The translations under genes and the position numbers were made by a program. A stretch of 26,192 nt of DNA from Paramecium tetraurelia (Eukaryota; Ciliophora; Oligohymenophorea; Peniculida; Parameciidae), in contig NW_001799057.1 in NCBI RefSeq assembly GCF_000165425.1, forward strand, positions 1 to 26,192, in the 5' to 3' direction. Under the pieces are notes generated by a model. The model was given only the letters and a program-made list of their open reading frames with translations, was not told the DNA's origin and did not search any database. Each line of letters begins with the position of its first letter. The stretch's first letter is position 1. Positions 6,362-22,612 of the stretch are shown in pieces.

Positions 6362-9300
6362 TCATTTCTATTTGCTATTTTTATAATCTTATCTTAGCTT
6401 TCTGTCTCTTCTCTAGATGATTTCAAGTCTAGTTTTTTCCCTATACTTTAGAGGTAATGCATATACTCTTAAGCTCCATCTAAATTATGATTCGACAATT
6501 CAATAAGGTCGGTTCTGAATCTGCAATCACTGGGCAATGGGGATTCACTTTTGATGATATAGGCGGGATCTATCTTTTCCAAATCCCAATATTTGATTCC
6601 ATCCCAACTAATGGATTCTAGCCAAGAACCTTCAACTTTGGATATTACTCTATTATGCTAAAACAAGGTCCCCCTATAAATGAAATGTAAATTAAATACT
6701 CAAAGTAATCAGTGGGCTTCTAATTTCTCCCAATTAACATACCTGCACCTTCAGAAAACTTGATATCACAAACAATGTCATTCTTCTGATCAACAAATTT
6801 GATACTGCCATACCATTCCAACAAGCGAGCACCATAAATTAAACCACTGACTTTAGCAGGAGGCATACTAAATGTAATCCTTTATCCATCACTAAATTCT
6901 ACGGCATTCTCCCCAACTTGATGACCAATAACAGCATTATATCTCAATGCAGCCTAATACTCAAAGTGACCATAAAATCTATATTTCTTCCTGAAATGCT
7001 CAATATAGAAATGAGAGATAGGAGGATGGTGACTAGTATGTTCAATGGAAATGGATGATCCATCTTACCATGAACCTTAGAATGTTTCACCTAAAATAGG
7101 ATTAAATGGTTTCTTCTATCTGCCTCCATTGTATAGTCCAGCTATGATCATTGTGACAACAAGTTTAAACCTCTCTTTCTCATCTTGTTATCCTATAGCA
7201 TACTCCATGTAAATAGGCATGAAACCCCAATAGTCACATATCCTTTCAATCATGGATCTAGGTTCAAAAATACGAACAGGAAGTGAGAATGAAATGATAT
7301 TTCGACCTTCAAATAGTTATCTGCCTGCCGATCTCATTAAATCTAATACCAATCCATCCTATGCCTTAGTTTCTTCCTTGTTGAAACATTCAATTCCTCC
7401 CTCTTTAAATCTTCTATATCCTGGAACTCGTTCTTCCAGTCTTTTGCTTTTGAGTTGCTATCCATTCTTCAATAATGTGATAGAATTTATTTATTCATCA
7501 AATCCTACAATAGACTTTGATTTCTGTCGAATATAGGTGGATGAGAGTTCACTTACAATGGATTGTTGGAACTAGTGGAATCTTTCTTCATCAATGGTTT
7601 ATGAAATCAAGCTTAAGTTCTCTGCTTTGTTGTATAAGTATTTTTCCTAATTCAATTAATGATGCCAATTACCAATTCGGTTGTTATTTTGGAACACGTG
7701 ATCTCACAATAATAATTAATTAGTCCTTTGCCTGAGACCTTGGGAATTCTTTGAATTTCGTATGCTTCGAACATATTAAACTTGTTGTTTTCAGAATTCA
7801 AGATATCGACAATGAAGGAGCTACCATTGTTTATGATGAATCGATATCTCAATAGGTTCATTTGAATGATGACTGGTTTTGAGACGACTTACTTTTGTCT
7901 AATGGGATGTATTATAAAATGAACCTTAGCTCTTTTCTAATATAAATTAACAAATTTACAGTAAATTCTAATTCGTTGCTATCCTTTATTTTATTAATCT
8001 AAACAAAATTGCTGTCCAAGACCTTTTTAAACTTCAAGTTCTTAATTATTCTAAATGCCTTTGATGAATCTATGTCACAAACCATCCTCCCATAAACGCG
8101 TATGGTCTACGCCTTTTGCTTATTAAAATAAGAGGCAGACAAGCCTGCAACCAGAAAAGCCATCAAAAACGGTAACCAATTAGGTTTCAGATAGACACTA
8201 ATAGCGAATGCAATACTCAAAAGTAGATATAGCTTCCAATTCAAGGTGCTTTTATTTTGGATAGGACTCTCGTATATTTTGACTCCATTTCTAAATTTGC
8301 GAAATTGCCATTGATGTTGTAAATCATCAAGAATTGTCAATATTTTATGTTTCGATAATTCCTAAGGGAGAGTGTCAGTCAATAGGTAGGTGTTAGTAAC
8401 TACAAAAGAGGGTCGCTTTTCTGCTTATACTACTGCTGTTGTGGCTTGGGAGATCTCTTCACGCCATTGTTCAGTTTCATCCAGAGTCTCACCGCTGAAA
8501 TAGAATTGTTTATTATTTTAGGCCTCCACCTCAATATAAAAGCAATGTTCCCTATCATCCAAAGTAGACATAGGTGAGATGTAGGCTTCCCTTAGATTGA
8601 TGGCACCTCTGGGTACCTTATCATTTCTATCCTTAAAGTAAATTAAGGTTTGTCCATCTAAAACCAAATATCTCTGATTCCAATTGTAATCTATGGGTCC
8701 ATCTCCTCGTTTCAAAATCATTCCTGCTTTTTTTCGCTGTATTTAGGGAGTTTTAGTTGGTGTTTATGAACTCGTAAGACTAACCTAGGATTATTTGACA
8801 GGAGTGGAGAATGTGGATTAGGATAGATTGGAGTAGTGCTTGAAGTACTTCTTCTTTAATCTAGATGTTGAATGATATAATATATTACTCTTTATACGAG
8901 GTCTTTTGTAAATCTTTGAGTGAGGTTATTTATTGAAAGAGATTCAATTTGACCTCTTGTTATTGCAAGAGAACTGTTTTATTCATTCTAAACAATTCAG
9001 AATCGTTCATGCTCTACCAAACATTGTAGGTGAGGAGCATGGACTTGTAGAAATACAATATGTACTTTCTTATTATTTCTGTTAAGAATTATGCAATTAC
9101 ATTTGACTCTTCTCCATATTAATAGATATTGATTTCAACATTCAAATTAACAGCAACAATGTTGGGACAGAATCGTTACCAATTATTCTTCTCCAAGATG
9201 CCAAAGTTGTCTCTCAATTTTCTCTCGACATCCTTTTCATAGCCCTTAAAGTAATCCAACTCTTCTGCAACCACATCAATCACTTGAGCAGCTCTATTCG

Positions 9301-12184: not shown

Positions 12185-13676
12185 TCATTATAAAGTATCA
12201 AATCTCTCTAATAACTACTTTTTGGTCATTGATCTAATTTCCAAATAAGCATCCATAGTAGGATCTAAAATATAATAAAATATATATACCAATATTAGAA
12301 TTCATAAATTTATCAACTTACAATGCATCTAAGACTTAGACACAATGGGATAAGAGGGTTTTTTCTTAATTGGTATCTAAGAAAGCCACATAATTAGATT
12401 ATTTGATTTGGTTTACATAGTTCTTAATATTCTATCTATAATTATCTCTAATTTCTAGGGATTAGGCATCTAATATCACTTTGTAATCTTTTAATCCATT
12501 ATTCAATTAATCAACTTCCTTGGCAATAGTTTCAACCAATCGTGTGAATTCAAAGTTGGATTATAATCGATTATCTTATGACTATTTGAGGTGGATCGAT
12601 AATTTGTTTAAACTAAAGTACTCAGTAGCAGTAGTGCATTGGTTTTTGATAACACTTAACAATTGTTGCCCTCTGTTATTGGCCAACAACAACAGATAGT
12701 ATGCTATTAGTGGAGATTCTTTGTTCTGTGACTATTCCAAAATAGTATGGGCAGTTGAACACATGAATTAGACTTTGCATCTTTCATTGACGATCTCTTA
12801 CAAGATGCTTACATTATTGGTATTACTATTAGATGGCTATAGAATATTCTGCTCTGGTTTATCCGAATAAAGATCCAAATCTCCACTAAACTCCCCATCA
12901 CTTTTTAAAGGAATTTTGAATAAGTATTCCCAAGTGCATCGTTTAGTTGGATCTTTAATGAGCATTGATTTCAGCAAAGTGATTGTTTATTTTGTAAAAT
13001 GAAATTGGGGAGGTATCACCCAATCGGATTCATCTTGAGCGGTAATTAATTTAGCAATGGATTTCTCTTCGAATGGACACTTACCTATCAATAATTCATA
13101 TAGGACAGCTCCCAGACTCCAGATATCGGCCTTACTATTATAGGAAAGGCCTCTGAGGACTTCTGGGGCCATGTATATTGGTGATCCCAACATGGTGGCT
13201 GTAACATCGTTTTTGATGGGTTTACAGAATCCAAAATCTGCTAATTTGTAAATTCCATTGTGGATTAAAATGTTTGATGGTTTTAGATCTCGATGAATGA
13301 TTGAGTTTTCTCTAAGAACCTTAAATGCTTGAATTAATTGATAAATTATCTCTAAGGATTTTCTCTCTGTAAAGTGTCCTTACAAAAGCAACAATTTATC
13401 GAGTGGGCCTCCTGAACAATATTCATAAACGAAATGATATTGATGAGTTGCTTTAATTAATTCAATGAATTTAACAACATATGGACAATGTTAAAGCTTT
13501 TAAAGCACTTCTATTTCTTGCATGCTCAATTCAAGTAATTTAGGTGTTTCATTAAATTTGATCACATCGACACTTTTAATGGCAACCACCGTCTAAGTAA
13601 GAAGATTGGTTGCTCTATAGACCTTTCCAAACTCGCCTTGTCCAATTTATTCATGAACCTTATATTATTCAATCAT
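12185..13676 (-). CDS. Serine/threonine protein kinase, ULK/ATG1-like
   Basis: Two exons (13676-12290 and 12264-12185, 25-nt intron) give 488 residues. The kinase domain fills about residues 4-270: IGQGEFGKVYRA glycine loop, VVAIKSV with the ATP lysine, IIHRDLKPSNIL catalytic loop, LADFGFCK, a short activation segment GSPIYMAPEVLRG, and DIWSLGAVLYELLIGKCPFE. All catalytic residues are present. The arrangement (short N-terminus, 'GSP-YMAPEV', 'PFEEKS') most resembles the ULK/ATG1 group common in ciliates; assignment within the kinase tree is tentative. The C-terminal ~215 residues are helical and Gln/Asn-rich without a recognised domain. The start ATG overlaps the TGA of the upstream gene on the same strand; it is the only ATG before the glycine loop, and an in-frame TGA lies just upstream. 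Confidence 0.87.
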
Positions 13677-14209
13677 TTTTTTAACAGTTAAATTAATAAA
13701 TCAAAACTATATTGCTCATTTGAATTACTTAATTGTGTTTCAAATTATTAGAGTATATTCATAGTAATAGGACTGACCTTCTTCATCTATTCGGCTAATT
13801 CATGCAACTCTCTCAACCTCAAAGACCAAATGATGATCTGAACAGCCTTGTCTATTGTCAACATTTCATCATAATTGTCAACTATGTACTTTTATAATAA
13901 TGCTAAATTGTGTGGAATAAAGAGTAAAGTAAAACTAGTTATCAAGTAAGATCTTTTGACTTTGGTTAATTGATACTATTCTACCAAGAGTTAATAGAGC
14001 ATGGATTATAATTATTGTTTCGTTTGATTATTTGTTGTTAAGAAGTAGAGATAATGTGCTAAATTTGAGGGTTGTTCATACACGAATAGCCAAGGATTGG
14101 TGGGTAAGAAGGCTTCGAATTGACTAATCTATTCTTAGACAACTGCATTCCAATTGGAATCCTTTATGAATTGCTTAATTTCGTTCTAAAGTTCAGATTA
14201 ACTTATCAT
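13673..14209 (-). CDS. Helical protein of unknown function overlapping the kinase start
   Basis: A 178-residue frame on the minus strand, from ATG at 14209 to the TGA at 13675-13673. The sequence is rich in Leu, Gln and aromatic residues and looks all-helical, with repeat-like segments such as QSMLYQLLVEQYQLTK and AVQIIIWSLRLRELHELAEQ that recall TPR-type solenoid proteins; I cannot name a family. A 22-nt stretch at 13707-13728 (GTA...TAG) could be an intron, which would change the last few residues and shift the stop a few bases further into the kinase gene. Its stop overlaps the kinase start by four bases (ATGA). The divergent EST1-NYN gene begins 25 bp away. Confidence 0.7.
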
Positions 14210-14234
14210 AATTCTGTATATTAATATTTAATTT

Positions 14235-16343
14235 ATGAATGTTGAAACACAGAGCAGTTTATATAACAAATTCAAAGACTTATTAGATACATTGAAGTAT
14301 TATCAATCTACATGCTAGAAATAAGGAAAAGCCCCCTGTTGTCTTTACGCTTCATGAATTGAATTGTAATGACACAAAACAATTTTTTCAAGTAACTGCG
14401 GAACTCATCTCATCCGGCATCAATTTCGTTATTGCTAAAGTAACACTTAAGACAATTATTTAAGTAAATTGACAAGAGAATGTGGCACATTCTTAAGCAA
14501 TAAATCGATATTGAATTAAAAAGCATATCTCCAGATGTAGAAGAAGAAATTTAACAATTTTACGATCTTCGAATAAATTTCCTCAGATCTATTATCAAAA
14601 ATCTGACACAATCACATTAACTAGGAGGATTGAATAATGATAATGAATTCAGATAGTTTTTAGCTAATTTATACTGCTATGCAGGGGAATTACACGAACA
14701 TCTTGGTAGGAGATTAGAGAAGATGAATCAAAAGCCTAAAGATAATTACAAAATTGCTGATTTGTTCTTTAATAAGGCAATTTCTATTTACCCTTTTTAA
14801 GGAAAATACTACTTCTTGATAGCTACCTTAATGAGGTAATTTTAAGACACGTTCAATGCAGTATGTAATCTGCAAAAAGCCTATTTTGCTCAAATACCCT
14901 ACAATTGCAAGGAGAACATGAATGAAGTCTTTGAAATAAATAGGAGCCACTTCAACGATTGGGCTAAACATGTCAAGCCTGCAAGTGAATTGGATAGGAA
15001 TACATACTTAAGAACTTTTATGGTGTATTTAATAAGATTCAATACGATTGTTGTATGAAATTAGAATTAATTTAGTTTACTAAAATTGGGTTCGAAGAGT
15101 TGTCTTAATTAACTAATATGTTTTTTCATTTGCAAGAGTATTTCAATATCATCAAAACTAATGTACATAGTGATTATAAGCAATAATATCAATTGTTATT
15201 GAAAGTCATAATGATGACGAACTTTGGTTTGCACAACAGCATTACCACATTCTAATTGAAAACTGTTCAAGATATCAAGGATAATGATTTAGTGAGAGAG
15301 TCAATCAAATTTGTATATGGATTGTATGTCAACTCACTTGATTTTATATTAAAATATTTGCTTTAGAATTCTATGAAGAATTTAGATCAAGTACCTCCAG
15401 TGACATTTTTATAATTGGTAATTCCAATCATCTACTATTTATATGATTAACCTTTGATTTGTACATATTTTTTGTCTGAATACCCTAGTTTAAATGATAA
15501 ATTGGCATAGATCTATTTATACTCAAGATAGAACTTGTATTAGGCAGAGAATATGAGTAACGATCTATTTTAATATCAAACTTAATTGAATGAGTAATTT
15601 CACAACTTTTTGTTTCCATTTGAAGTACCTTTAGTAGGATTCACTTGTTATAACCACGTACTATAGACATTCAAACAACAATCTTCAACCTAGAAAGATG
15701 AAGATACTTAGACATCGATAATATTATTTTATGTTTGCGAACAAATAATATAATAATTGCATGGCATTTAAATAAAGAATGTGAAGGAACAGAAGTGGGA
15801 AGAAGAAATTCCAAAAGAATTGATTAGGAAAAAAATAATAATTGATGGAATGAATGTGGCAATGAGATATGGATAGGAATAATCTTAGGTGGCAAAGTTT
15901 TGTTCGTAGGGATTGAAATGTGCCTTAGAATTTTGGGTTAAGAGAGGACATGATGTTATGATCATATTGCCTGACTTTTGTTTTAACGAGAGCGAGATAA
16001 GCAAGAAGAAGCTAACAAATGTAATTATTAGGTAGATATTCTTTAGTAAAACAATGTCAACAAATTGCCGGATGATGTCAAGTTGTTATTGGATATGAAG
16101 AATAAAGGGTATGCTTATGGAGTTCCAAATTGGAATTATGATGACTCTTATATGATTCAACATGCAAGAGAAAAGGGAGGGTTGATTTTGACCAATGATC
16201 GATATAATGATCACATTAGAGCTCTGGAAAACAATATTGTAGAAAGAGAAAGATTGAAGGAATGGATCAGAAACAATTGTATCAGTTATACCTTTCTATA
16301 AAATGAATTGGTTCCAAACCCTGATCAATTAAAGAGAATTTGA
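14235..16343 (+). CDS. EST1/SMG-type helical protein with C-terminal Regnase-like NYN ribonuclease domain
   Basis: Five exons (14235-14296, 14319-14439, 14465-15052, 15076-16020, 16047-16343; introns 22, 25, 23, 26 nt) give 670 residues. Residues ~20-260 match the EST1/SMG5-7 14-3-3-like and TPR region: KQIDKRMWHILKQQID, then GELHEHLGRRLE, YKIADLFFNKAISIYPFQGK, and NAVCNLQKAYFAQIPYNC. The middle (260-500) is helical. Residues ~510-660 match the Zc3h12a/Regnase NYN (PIN-like) nuclease: IIIDGMNVAMRYG (Asp 514), HDVMIILPDF, NWNYDDSYMIQHA (Asp 604, Asp 605), GLILTNDRYND (Asp 623) and a C-terminal YTFLQNELVPNPDQ. The four acidic metal ligands are all present, so an active endoribonuclease is expected. 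No zinc finger is seen. EST1-type proteins act in nonsense-mediated decay and telomerase; coupling this module to a Regnase-type nuclease, rather than the SMG6 PIN domain, suggests an RNA-decay role, which is inference. Confidence 0.88.
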
Positions 16344-16427
16344 TTATTATAATATGCATAACATAACATAAATTATGTAAAAAAATTAATAAGCAAAATT
16401 CTTTTTTTATGATGTACTTATAATTTA

Positions 16428-17343
16428 TCAAATGTTATTGTTCAAATTTGATCTGGGAGGTTATTATTAAACTTATTGTGGTGCTGGGTGATATTAAGGA
16501 TATTAAGGATATGATGGAATCACTCTTGATGAAATGATTGGGGCAGCATATTAGACTGGATAGGTCTAAACTGGTTAGACAACACTGACTGGTTATTGTA
16601 CAAATTATTAAACAACTGGTTATGGTGCAATTGTTTAAACAACTGGTTATTAGACCACTTATTAGACGACTGGTTGTTGGACGACTTATTACTAAAAAGT
16701 TAATTTAAGTGGAAAGTACATGAACAACTTGTCTCTCAACTGGATAGTACTCAACTCTCTCTTGATATCTGTCGACTGGGACATACTCTAATAATTTAGT
16801 GGGGATTTGGAGTACCTGTGTATTTCTCTTGGAAAACTTATGGGACGTATTCTGTTTAATATTCAACTGCATAATAATCTGTGACTTTTCTTTCTCTTGG
16901 GACATATTGAACGACTTCTTATTCTTCATATTCCATGACAGCCTTTTAGTAGGGGACGTATTCGATTCTTGATTCTCCCTTGATTGTTGCCTAATTTGAA
17001 TTTCAAATTTTTGTTTACATGGACTGGTTGTTAAACGACTGGTTGAGCGATGACTGATTATTGTAAAACTGGGGCTTAGACGACTGGTTGAGCGACGACT
17101 GGAGCCACTGGTCTGGCGACGCTGTATGTCAATGGGGCAACGGGAGCATATGCAGGTGCATATTATGCTGGATATGTGGCTAATGGAGCAGGGGCATATT
17201 AAGGAGCATATTAAGGGGCATATTAAGGAGCATATTGTGGTGCTTATGGATGATATTAAGGTGCTTGGGGTTGTTGAGGAGGTTGATCTAAAAATGTAGA
17301 GATTAATATTTTTACTTGATGGTGCGGGTGGTCTTTGAGACAT
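16428..17343 (-). CDS. Alveolin/epiplasmin-type cortical cytoskeleton protein
   Basis: Five minus-strand exons (17343-17316, 17287-17019, 16990-16816, 16787-16720, 16691-16428) give 267 residues; all four introns are exactly 28 nt, GTA...TAG. Residues 1-50 are Pro/Gln/Tyr/Ala repeats (PQYAPQYAPQYAPQYAP) and 60-99 are Val/Pro/Gln repeats (VVAQPVV). The core, about 100-180, has the Val/Glu/Tyr/Pro/Arg pattern of alveolins: RIEYVPYQKAVMEYEEQEVV, QYVPRERKVTDYYAVEYQ, EYVPVDRYQERVEYYPVERQ. The C-terminus repeats QQPVVQQ and ends in a PQYPQYHPAP stretch. Such proteins build the epiplasm under the ciliate surface. Read on the plus strand the same DNA has Gly/Tyr/Thr-rich frames that are only shadows. 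Confidence 0.88.
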
Positions 17344-17434
17344 TATTTGATAAAAAGATTTTTTCTTATTTTTATTTATATATCCATGCCATAAATTTTA
17401 TTGCTTAAATATCCTAAACAAATAATTATAATTA

Positions 17435-18408
17435 ATGTAGTTAAGAAGTATCTCAAATAAAAAAAAACCAAGTCAGTTGACTCAAACTACGCAACTCTTG
17501 GAGAAAGAAACCAAGCACATGGTAAATCATCAATCTAACAATTTCAATAGGAAGAGCAATTATAGCAACTTAAATAAATTATGCAATAAGAAAAATTTAA
17601 GAGGGAATCTGAAAAACCTACCGGACAAAATGGGACCAGATGGAAAGCTGCCAAAATTGACAAGGGATTGAGAAATTACACTCAAAATTTGCTTCAAAAA
17701 AAAAATAGTTTTGAAAAGAAATCAATACCCGCAGTTGTTAGACCAACCTCAGCCAAATTGCAACCTCTAGAAAAATCAATTAAAACACCAGCAATAGACA
17801 AAGATGTTGAAATATTTTTTACCTAAGTAGGATTGCTGCAATATAAAGAAAAATTTTAAAATTACACAATTCAAAGTTTAAGTATTTTTTATTTCTTATT
17901 TAGAGAGAATGTCACTGTGTAATAGTTAAGAGAAATGGGCATATTACCAGGCCATTAAATAAAAATTATGAGGGCATTAAAAGAAATGCCTGAAAATATA
18001 TAATAAATGCAAGAAGACAGCTTCTGTCAAAGTAGAGTAAGTGTGTCAGTAAGTGGCGTATAATGTAATTAAGCAAAATTAGCATGCTGGTTGTGTTATA
18101 AGATATTTGATGATACCGAGATAAATTGCAATGGAAGGAACTTCTGTAGTTAACAATGTCTGATATAATTTAATTAAGAATATATGATCAAATGTTCAAA
18201 ATGCAACAAGAAATTTTACAAGAACGATGGCTGCGTCGTATATGATAATTACTATTGTTCTCAATCTTGTAGTATAGATGCAAATGACTCAGTGAAAGGA
18301 TGCAGTACAAATACTATAGAAAGCGTAATAGAAGAGGATTAATTTCAATAAACCAATTATGCAGAACAATTTAATGAATTCTTAACTTCTAGTTTATTAA
18401 ATAATTGA
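17435..18408 (+). CDS. SAM-domain protein with C-terminal cysteine clusters
   Basis: Three exons (17435-17447, 17477-17881, 17906-18408) give 306 residues. After MQLRIDSNYATLGERNQ comes a Gln/Glu/Lys coiled-coil stretch (QQEEQLQQLKQIMQQEKF). Residues ~126-175 form a SAM domain: VEIFFTQVGLLQYKEKFQNY, then TVQQLREMGILPGHQIKIMR. Residues ~205-265 contain two similar Cys motifs, CWLCYKIF...RNFCSQQC and CSKCNKKFY...YYCSQSC, likely zinc-binding and resembling MYM/TRASH-type fingers. The tail is acidic. The first intron (29 nt, ends CAG) is needed to enter the coiled-coil frame; the second is placed as 24 nt ending AGAG because the usual TAG acceptor two bases earlier would break the SAM domain, so that join is uncertain. 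An alternative unspliced frame from the same ATG ends at 17670. SAM domains mediate protein or RNA contacts; the role here is unknown. Confidence 0.75.
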
Positions 18409-18411
18409 TCA
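18406..18411. other. Palindromic TGATCA carrying both convergent stop codons
   Basis: The plus-strand gene ends with TGA at 18406-18408 and the minus-strand gene ends with TGA at 18411-18409, so the six bases TGATCA serve as two abutting stops with no base between the coding regions. Their transcripts must overlap as antisense RNA or have 3' ends within the other's coding sequence. Confidence 0.75.
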
Positions 18412-19191
18412 ATCATCCTCTGATTGTTCTGAACAGTCTTCTTTTAATTTCAATTCATTAAGTTAATATATCAATTTATCTTGATCTAAGTTTGATTTGC
18501 TTTTCATCTACTACACATCAGCCACATTGGGTTCCTCTAATTATTAAACAAGTTTTTTATCTGTTTCCCCTTCTGGCTATTGTTGCTATAATCGTTTGAG
18601 ATCCTATAACTGCTATTTTTTTTTCAGTAACTCTCTTCTTTTTTTTAACCTCCACTGGAACTTGCACTCTTGGAACAAAGCAATTGTAAATGCGTCGAGA
18701 ATGCGCAGTAAGATTCTTTAAATATAATTTATTTTTCTTGTATTCTTATTTTATTTTATCAAAGTTGATAACACTGTTAGTTTGCTTAATCCTCTTTTCA
18801 ATTCCCTAGTATTAATTTATAGATAATACTTCATTATCTTCAATTAATTTTCTCATTTCTAATATTTTCTAACCTAAATTTGATGGTTTAATGGGTAGAT
18901 CCTCATTCAAAGCATAAGACGAAGGTTGATTGTTGATAGTTAGGATTTTTTGCACCAATATTTTATTCTCAGTGTTTTCAGGATGTTTGATTTCGAGTAA
19001 TTTTTTGGATGTTGAAGATTTGAGTTTCTTTTTGTGGAATGGTTTCTCTACATTCATTGGTTATTCTTTGATATTTTGGACTTGATTGACATGCTTGTTA
19101 TATTACTACCATGAAATTGAATTCATACATATAGCAAATTGTACTCTGATATTGGAGTGATTATTTCATTTTTATTCCAAATATTAGTCAT
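18409..19191 (-). CDS. Basic, partly coiled-coil protein of unknown function
   Basis: Three exons (19191-19129, 19105-18632, 18612-18409) give 246 residues. The protein is Lys/Gln/Glu-rich, with a Gly-free middle part (FHKKKLKSSTSKKLLEIK; RRIYNCFVPRVQVPVEVKKK) and a coiled-coil-like C-terminus (QLQDLKRLQQQQPEGE, then DKLIYQLNELKLKEDCSEQS). The 23-nt intron at 19106-19128 is canonical. The frame change near 18620 is best explained by a 19-nt intron (18613-18631, GTT...TAG) containing nine A's, which is at the short limit; a sequence slip in the A-run is the alternative. No domain is recognised. Its start is 8 bp from that of the divergent small gene at 19200. Confidence 0.65.
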
Positions 19192-21484: not shown

Positions 21485-22612
21485 ATGTTCAGCTTTTCGC
21501 CAATCAAACAGAAATAATACCTCAGTGCCTCAAACCAATTTGAACAACCTTTGGATGACATGAGTTGCATAATCGAAAACGGCAGCGTTGGATCCCTTTA
21601 TTTAGGGAACATCGAGTCAGCTTGTACTTAATCTCATAAACCTTTAAAGCCAGTCTAGAAAACTTGAGGAGACACAAAATCAAGGGAGTTCTATCCATCT
21701 GCATGAATAAGATTCCCTTTGAAGTGTAGTCATCACTATAACATTACTCCCACATTTATTTGGAGGATTGTGAGTCTGAAAATATAGCCAGGCATTTTGA
21801 GAACTCCAATCAATTCATCGACAAAGCCAGGCAATCTGGGAATGTATTGGTTCATTGCATGGCTGGAATCTCTAGATCGGCTACTCTTGTTGCAGCTTAT
21901 CTAATGAAGAAAAACAATATGAGTGCCCAAGATGCCATAAGATTGCTTGAAAGAAAGAGATGGCAAGTCTATCCCAACAGTGGATTCCTAAGACAATTGT
22001 AACAATATGAAAAGGTTTTATACTAATAAAATGGAAGATCTGACATCTCTTCTCCTCTCAGAGATTCATGGTCTAAGTAATTAGTCATCATTATAGATTT
22101 AGATAATATTAAACTCCCACCAAGGATAATTTGTTTTACAACAAATATGAAGAACAGCAACAATCTAGTCAAAAAACTAGACCATTGGATGAGATTTGCT
22201 TTGACAATTACAAAAGGAAATCCATTGGCTTTGAAGATTTGCTTAGAAGTCCAGAACCTAACGAAAAGAAACCTTTTTCTTTAACTTAACATAGACCAAG
22301 TTCAGCTGTAAGGACATCCCCTGATCTCATTCGAAAAAAGAATTTGTTGTCTGATGCAAGTAATATTTTATAGTTCTTTATATTTTAGTCCATGGAAATA
22401 AGAAGGATGGTTTGGCTGCCTTGGCTTAGGAATTGAATCAGGGAGATTGGCAAAGTAAAAAACTGGATTTTGAAAACAAATACTCAAAACCAGTCAGTTA
22501 ACAAAACAATGTCAAATCATTTCTTACTCCAACTCGTCCATCATAATTGAATCAGCATCAAAGTAAATTGGATGAATTGCTTAATTCTTTCAATAGAAAA
22601 TCCATACTCTGA
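21485..22612 (+). CDS. Dual-specificity protein phosphatase with disordered tail
   Basis: Four exons (21485-21623, 21650-22076, 22097-22359, 22389-22612; introns 26, 20, 29 nt) give 350 residues. The DSPc domain covers about 30-170: SLYLGNIESASSLENLRRH, KIKGVLSICMN, YLEDCES with the likely general acid Asp 86, the P-loop VHCMAGISRSAT (Cys 116, Arg 122, the HC-x5-R signature), and YLMKKNNMSAQDAI followed by RWQVYPNSGF. All catalytic parts are present. Residues 180-350 are a Ser/Lys/Gln-rich tail without a domain. The enzyme removes phosphate from Tyr and Ser/Thr, typically on MAP kinases; the actual substrate is unknown. The 20-nt intron at 22077-22096 is among the shortest here. Confidence 0.9.

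Follow-up and report, generated by a model that had tools for sequence, protein, structure and literature searches.

A probable Paramecium tetraurelia ortholog of the ciliate mRNA surveillance nuclease Smg6L

Introduction

In Tetrahymena, the decay of transcripts with premature termination codons is reported to require SMG6L, a protein of the SMG5/6/7 family with a C-terminal NYN nuclease, which seems to cooperate with UPF1 in nonsense-mediated decay (NMD) in an organism from which SMG1 is reported absent (PMC6173133, a 2018 review that cites Tian et al. 2017, NAR 45:6848, for Smg6L of T. thermophila). Animal SMG6/EST1A likewise joins an EST1/14-3-3-like tetratricopeptide repeat (TPR) scaffold to a C-terminal metal-dependent RNase, in animals a PIN domain, and the NYN domain with four aspartates is found in Regnase-1/ZC3H12A-C and KHNYN. 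NMD acting through UPF genes has been described in Paramecium tetraurelia (PMC5663052; PMC11888146), in which UPF1A, UPF1B and UPF3 were silenced, UPF silencing being done by feeding (PMC5663052). A stretch of 26,192 nt of the P. tetraurelia genome (contig NW_001799057.1, positions 1 to 26,192, forward strand; the window) carries a five-exon gene at 14235-16343 (+) whose 670-residue product combines a scaffold of the SMG5/6/7 family with an NYN nuclease domain, and which is very probably the Paramecium ortholog of Smg6L, with a predicted role in NMD.

Domain architecture

The NYN domain covers residues 509-670 (15829..16340, +), ends at the C-terminus of the protein and matches the Pfam family RNase_Zc3h12a (PF11977) over residues 509-669 (91.2 bits, E 7.5e-26). 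Comparison with PDB sequences at E up to 1 gave 13 matches. Ten, with E-values between 4.5e-12 and 1.3e-9, are to ZC3H12C, ZC3H12B, ZC3H12A or KHNYN; the other three, to protein-only RNase P, are weak (E 0.13-0.15). The aspartate ligands of the matched nucleases align on Asp514 (15844..15846, +), Asp604-Asp605 (16140..16145, +) and Asp623 (16197..16199, +), leaving the metal ligands of the domain intact, as expected of Smg6L, and the protein is predicted to cleave RNA. At E up to 1 it matched neither the Pfam model PIN_4, the C-terminal domain of animal SMG6, nor that of any CCCH or other zinc finger; the nuclease differs from that of SMG6/EST1A in being of the Zc3h12a type, and the protein differs from Regnase-1/ZC3H12A-C and KHNYN in having an EST1 scaffold in front of the NYN domain instead of a matched finger.

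This scaffold, an EST1/SMG5-6-7 array of 14-3-3-like TPR and further helices, occupies approximately residues 1-497 (14235..15795, +) and corresponds to the N-terminal scaffold of SMG5/6/7 (EST1) type in Smg6L. Its assignment draws on the Pfam matches of relatives, a profile search against PDB sequences and the predicted fold. EST1_DNA_bind (PF10373) scores above its cut-off in six of seven homologs and just below it in the seventh, P0004 (21.5 against 22 bits); the match of the P. octaurelia ortholog (23.3 bits, cut-off 22) maps to residues 162-343 of the window protein (14765..15333, +). The profile search matched the scaffold to SMG6 and SMG7, with SMG6/EST1A the best among SMG proteins, and comparison of the modelled fold also favours an EST1/SMG assignment.

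An earlier reading of the same sequence (the original prediction) had proposed that an EST1/SMG-like module is joined here to an NYN nuclease of the Regnase type, which PF11977, the EST1_DNA_bind matches of relatives, the PDB profile search and the fold bear out, and its coordinates, protein length, 26-nt intron at 16021-16046 and four aspartates were all reproduced. It had further regarded the protein as possibly an independently built decay endonuclease of ciliates. The architecture is already known in kind, and Tetrahymena SMG6L, as described in PMC6173133, is in essence the standard ciliate SMG6 with this fusion.

Orthology to Smg6L

The order EST1_DNA_bind followed by NYN is common to Tetrahymena malaccensis P0006 (PF10373 42.6 bits, PF11977 132.9 bits), P0003 (from a metagenome), P0005 (from a transcriptome) and P0007, and to P0004 with its PF10373 score just under the cut-off. 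Among the proteins with this order, that of Pseudocohnilembus has its EST1 match just below the cut-off and that of Ichthyophthirius has its NYN match cut short. The C-terminal segment of P0001 found seven proteins and that of P0006 four, each count including the query itself.

The P. tetraurelia genome was searched as a 69 Mb assembly of 231 contigs, in which profile searches read exon by exon, so that absences are suggestive only. P0006 found the window gene and its ohnolog only (E up to 0.01; six exon matches, two loci), as did P0001 (E up to 0.1; ten exon matches, two loci), and PF11977 was likewise confined to these two loci (four exon matches). The ohnolog is a syntenic copy on contig C223 (the window lying on C102), with 614 of 670 residues identical and a ratio of nonsynonymous to synonymous divergence (dN/dS) of 0.075; together with the PF11977 E-value of 7.5e-26, this ratio indicates that the domain and gene signal is not due to chance. 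A full-length protein search returned two proteins only, both from Paramecium and both of 670 residues: one of P. octaurelia (95% identity over 100% of the query) and one of P. sonneborni (89% over 100%). The pair of ohnologs sets Paramecium apart from T. thermophila, and the N-terminus of the window protein is shorter than that of P0006 (985 residues, with a long low-complexity leader). In yeast, Ebs1, Nmd4 and Upf1 (9qdq) are separate polypeptides, in comparison with the single one of Paramecium.

Several observations weigh against orthology to Smg6L or against the EST1 assignment behind it. The Pfam EST1 models do not match the window protein itself at E up to 1, nor do they match its N-terminal part (458 residues) or the whole ohnolog at E up to 10; the EST1 profile match that the original prediction expected within residues 20-260 was found in relatives, where it falls at 162-343 by the P. 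octaurelia mapping. The link to T. thermophila Smg6L is made through T. malaccensis P0006 and the shared architecture, not through the sequence of that exact protein. Identity to P0006 is only 33% overall for the P. octaurelia protein, 49% over 85% of the P0006 C-terminal segment, and 28% between the N-terminal parts of the window protein and P0006. The UPF2 model gave no match in the genome, but it matched in no control either, so that nothing follows from this. An EST1_DNA_bind search of the genome gave one sub-threshold match elsewhere (E 2.76), and is uninformative on other EST1 proteins because it missed the window gene too. No literature naming the Paramecium gene was found; Tian et al. 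2017, which lay outside that search, may name it.

Phosphoserine pocket and UPF1 binding

The binding of phosphorylated UPF1 is reported to depend in part on Lys66 and Arg163 in SMG7 and on Arg625 and Arg706 in SMG6 (PMC6739308; PMC3215184). The corresponding pocket was compared in seven family rows, the window protein and six of the seven homologs (P0005, which starts too late, was left out), aligned with SMG fragments. At the column of SMG7 K66, lysine is present in all five family rows that reach it, in the window protein as Lys72 (14495..14497, +), which is Arg in the ohnolog; human SMG6 has Tyr there, and SMG6 R625 was not placed in the alignment. At the column of SMG7 R163, equivalent to SMG6 R706, human SMG6, human SMG7 and Caenorhabditis elegans SMG-7 all have Arg, in contrast to the family rows, which have Glu in six cases, three of them closely related Paramecium proteins, Gln in one and Arg in none. 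The window protein has Glu139 at this position (14696..14698, +), as does the ohnolog, a charge reversal by which it departs from the basic phosphoserine-binding pair of animal SMG6. Profile-profile alignment reproduced the register of R163 and Glu139 (hhalign probability 96.4); single-profile HMMER alignments agree for C. elegans SMG-7 and drift in the pocket stretch for SMG6 and SMG7. The register, K66 with Lys72 and R163 with Glu139, is therefore likely, not certain.

Given a Glu in the place of the phosphate-binding Arg, and the reported lack of SMG1 in alveolates, the protein probably does not dock on UPF1 by way of an SMG1-type phosphoserine, which suggests that UPF1 is recruited without one. 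A broader proposal, put forward tentatively and with the odds somewhat against it, is that the ciliate Smg6L pocket lost phosphoserine reading through the Arg-to-Glu change at SMG7 R163/SMG6 R706, a change that breaks binding in the laboratory, and that the nuclease may reach UPF1 independently of phosphorylation. This argument loses weight from the report that SMG5 and SMG6 lack K66 and that cells with SMG7 K66E keep NMD (PMC6739308), so that even in human cells the pocket does not always decide the outcome; the 2018 review leaves open whether UPF1 binding needs phosphorylation (PMC6173133). If the proposal holds, Smg6L could be a natural record of the SMG5/6/7 family working after the loss of SMG1.

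The same altered pocket would also suit a Regnase-like decay factor independent of UPF1, in which the helical module serves as a general protein or RNA scaffold and the NYN nuclease is sent to selected mRNAs (stem-loops, small-RNA targets) and not to premature stops; the NYN domain does belong to the Zc3h12a family, in which the known members cleave particular mRNAs. This alternative is improbable, given that profile and fold identify the scaffold specifically as of the EST1/SMG5-6-7 type, that in Tetrahymena NMD SMG6L seems to operate together with UPF1 and that no CCCH finger was matched at E up to 1. A nonsense-mediated function, one half of the role foreseen in the original prediction, is plausible from Tetrahymena SMG6L; the other half, a small-RNA-linked role, was dropped, as nothing found supports it.

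That the protein is instead a telomerase-associated Est1 carrying a nuclease is highly improbable: its likeness to telomerase Est1 is a match of fold only, the sequence profiles reach SMG6 and SMG7 with no yeast Est1 chain among 23 PDB-sequence matches at E up to 10, and we know of no telomerase role for the NYN nuclease domain.

NMD genes in the genome

UPF1_Zn_bind was found at two loci of the genome and Smg4_UPF3 at one, consistent with the UPF1A, UPF1B and UPF3 genes silenced in P. tetraurelia. No locus matched PIN_4 at E up to 0.001, in a search whose control was positive in nine of 14 genomes, all nine prokaryotic. The SMG1 model had no match either, and as no control was positive nothing follows from this.

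The finding is in itself a small one: the decay pathway was known from ciliates, and its nuclease is now placed in Paramecium. What it usefully adds is a second ciliate genus, one that offers a good genetic test, a scaffold that is SMG6/SMG7-like both in fold and by sequence profile, and a specific and testable ground for thinking that UPF1 may be bound without phosphorylation.

Gene structure

The five exons (14235-14296, 14319-14439, 14465-15052, 15076-16020 and 16047-16343, +) follow from splicing and translation, the ohnolog and the relatives of equal length, and the frame is open only under the ciliate code, in which TAA and TAG encode Gln and TGA is the stop. This code, the intron lengths of 22-26 nt and the 95% identity to the P. 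octaurelia protein point to the Paramecium aurelia group, probably P. tetraurelia, as the source. In addition to the 26-nt intron of the original prediction, three more are needed: intron 1 (14297..14318, 22 nt, GTA...TAG), intron 2 (14440..14464, 25 nt, GTA...AAG) and intron 3 (15053..15075, 23 nt, GTA...TAG), the last within the EST1 module. A model with three introns was rejected, as its frame breaks after residue 257 and is restored by the intron at 15053-15075. All four introns have matching positions and lengths in the ohnolog, with 2/22, 6/25 and 2/23 bases differing in introns 1 to 3 and an identical sequence in intron 4 (16021..16046, +), which lies within the NYN domain. These introns, the identity and dN/dS of the ohnologs and the equal-length P. 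octaurelia and P. sonneborni proteins make the gene reading sound without RNA-seq, which would be the direct proof. That two neighbouring genes were misread as one, the four short introns having been deduced from sequence, is very unlikely to the point of being negligible, because exon 4 (945 nt) is free of stops all the way from the EST1 module (residue 258) into the NYN domain (residue 572), the 670-residue product recurs in two further Paramecium species and the domain order repeats among other ciliates.

Ohnologous regions and neighbouring genes

The ohnologous regions are unusually alike at 15780-18500 (compared with L005, C223), 20 of 27 100-nt bins of 15800-18499 having identities of 0.94-1.00 and the other seven 0.86-0.93, in comparison with 0.79-0.91 across 14200-15399 (12 bins). 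Over the NYN part, synonymous divergence (dS) comes to 0.10, compared with 0.85, 1.42 and 0.37 in the three preceding parts, and intron 4 is identical. This likeness around the NYN part may be due to gene conversion or to strong constraint at the DNA level.

Upstream, a minus-strand open reading frame (ORF) at 13673-14209, with no Pfam match, has its start codon only 25 nt from that of the Smg6L-type gene, so that the two, should both be real, would share a very tight divergent promoter. Convergent with the Smg6L-type gene is a repeat-rich stretch at 16441-17400 (-) with Pro/Val/Gln/Tyr repeats and many further partial copies elsewhere in the genome, at 66-83% identity; the ORF scanned there had no Pfam match, and the stretch is possibly an epiplasmin- or articulin-type cytoskeletal gene. 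Other genes in the window include a protein kinase at 12198-13676 (-; Pkinase, 1.2e-64), a SAM-domain protein with a Cys-rich C-terminal part at 17386-18408 (+; SAM_2, 1.4e-6), ORFs at 6423-8721 (-) that match an oxysterol-binding domain (1.6e-34) and a PH domain (1e-15) and are possibly exons of one OSBP-type gene, and a dual-specificity phosphatase at 21703-22473 (+; DSPc, 4.3e-31).
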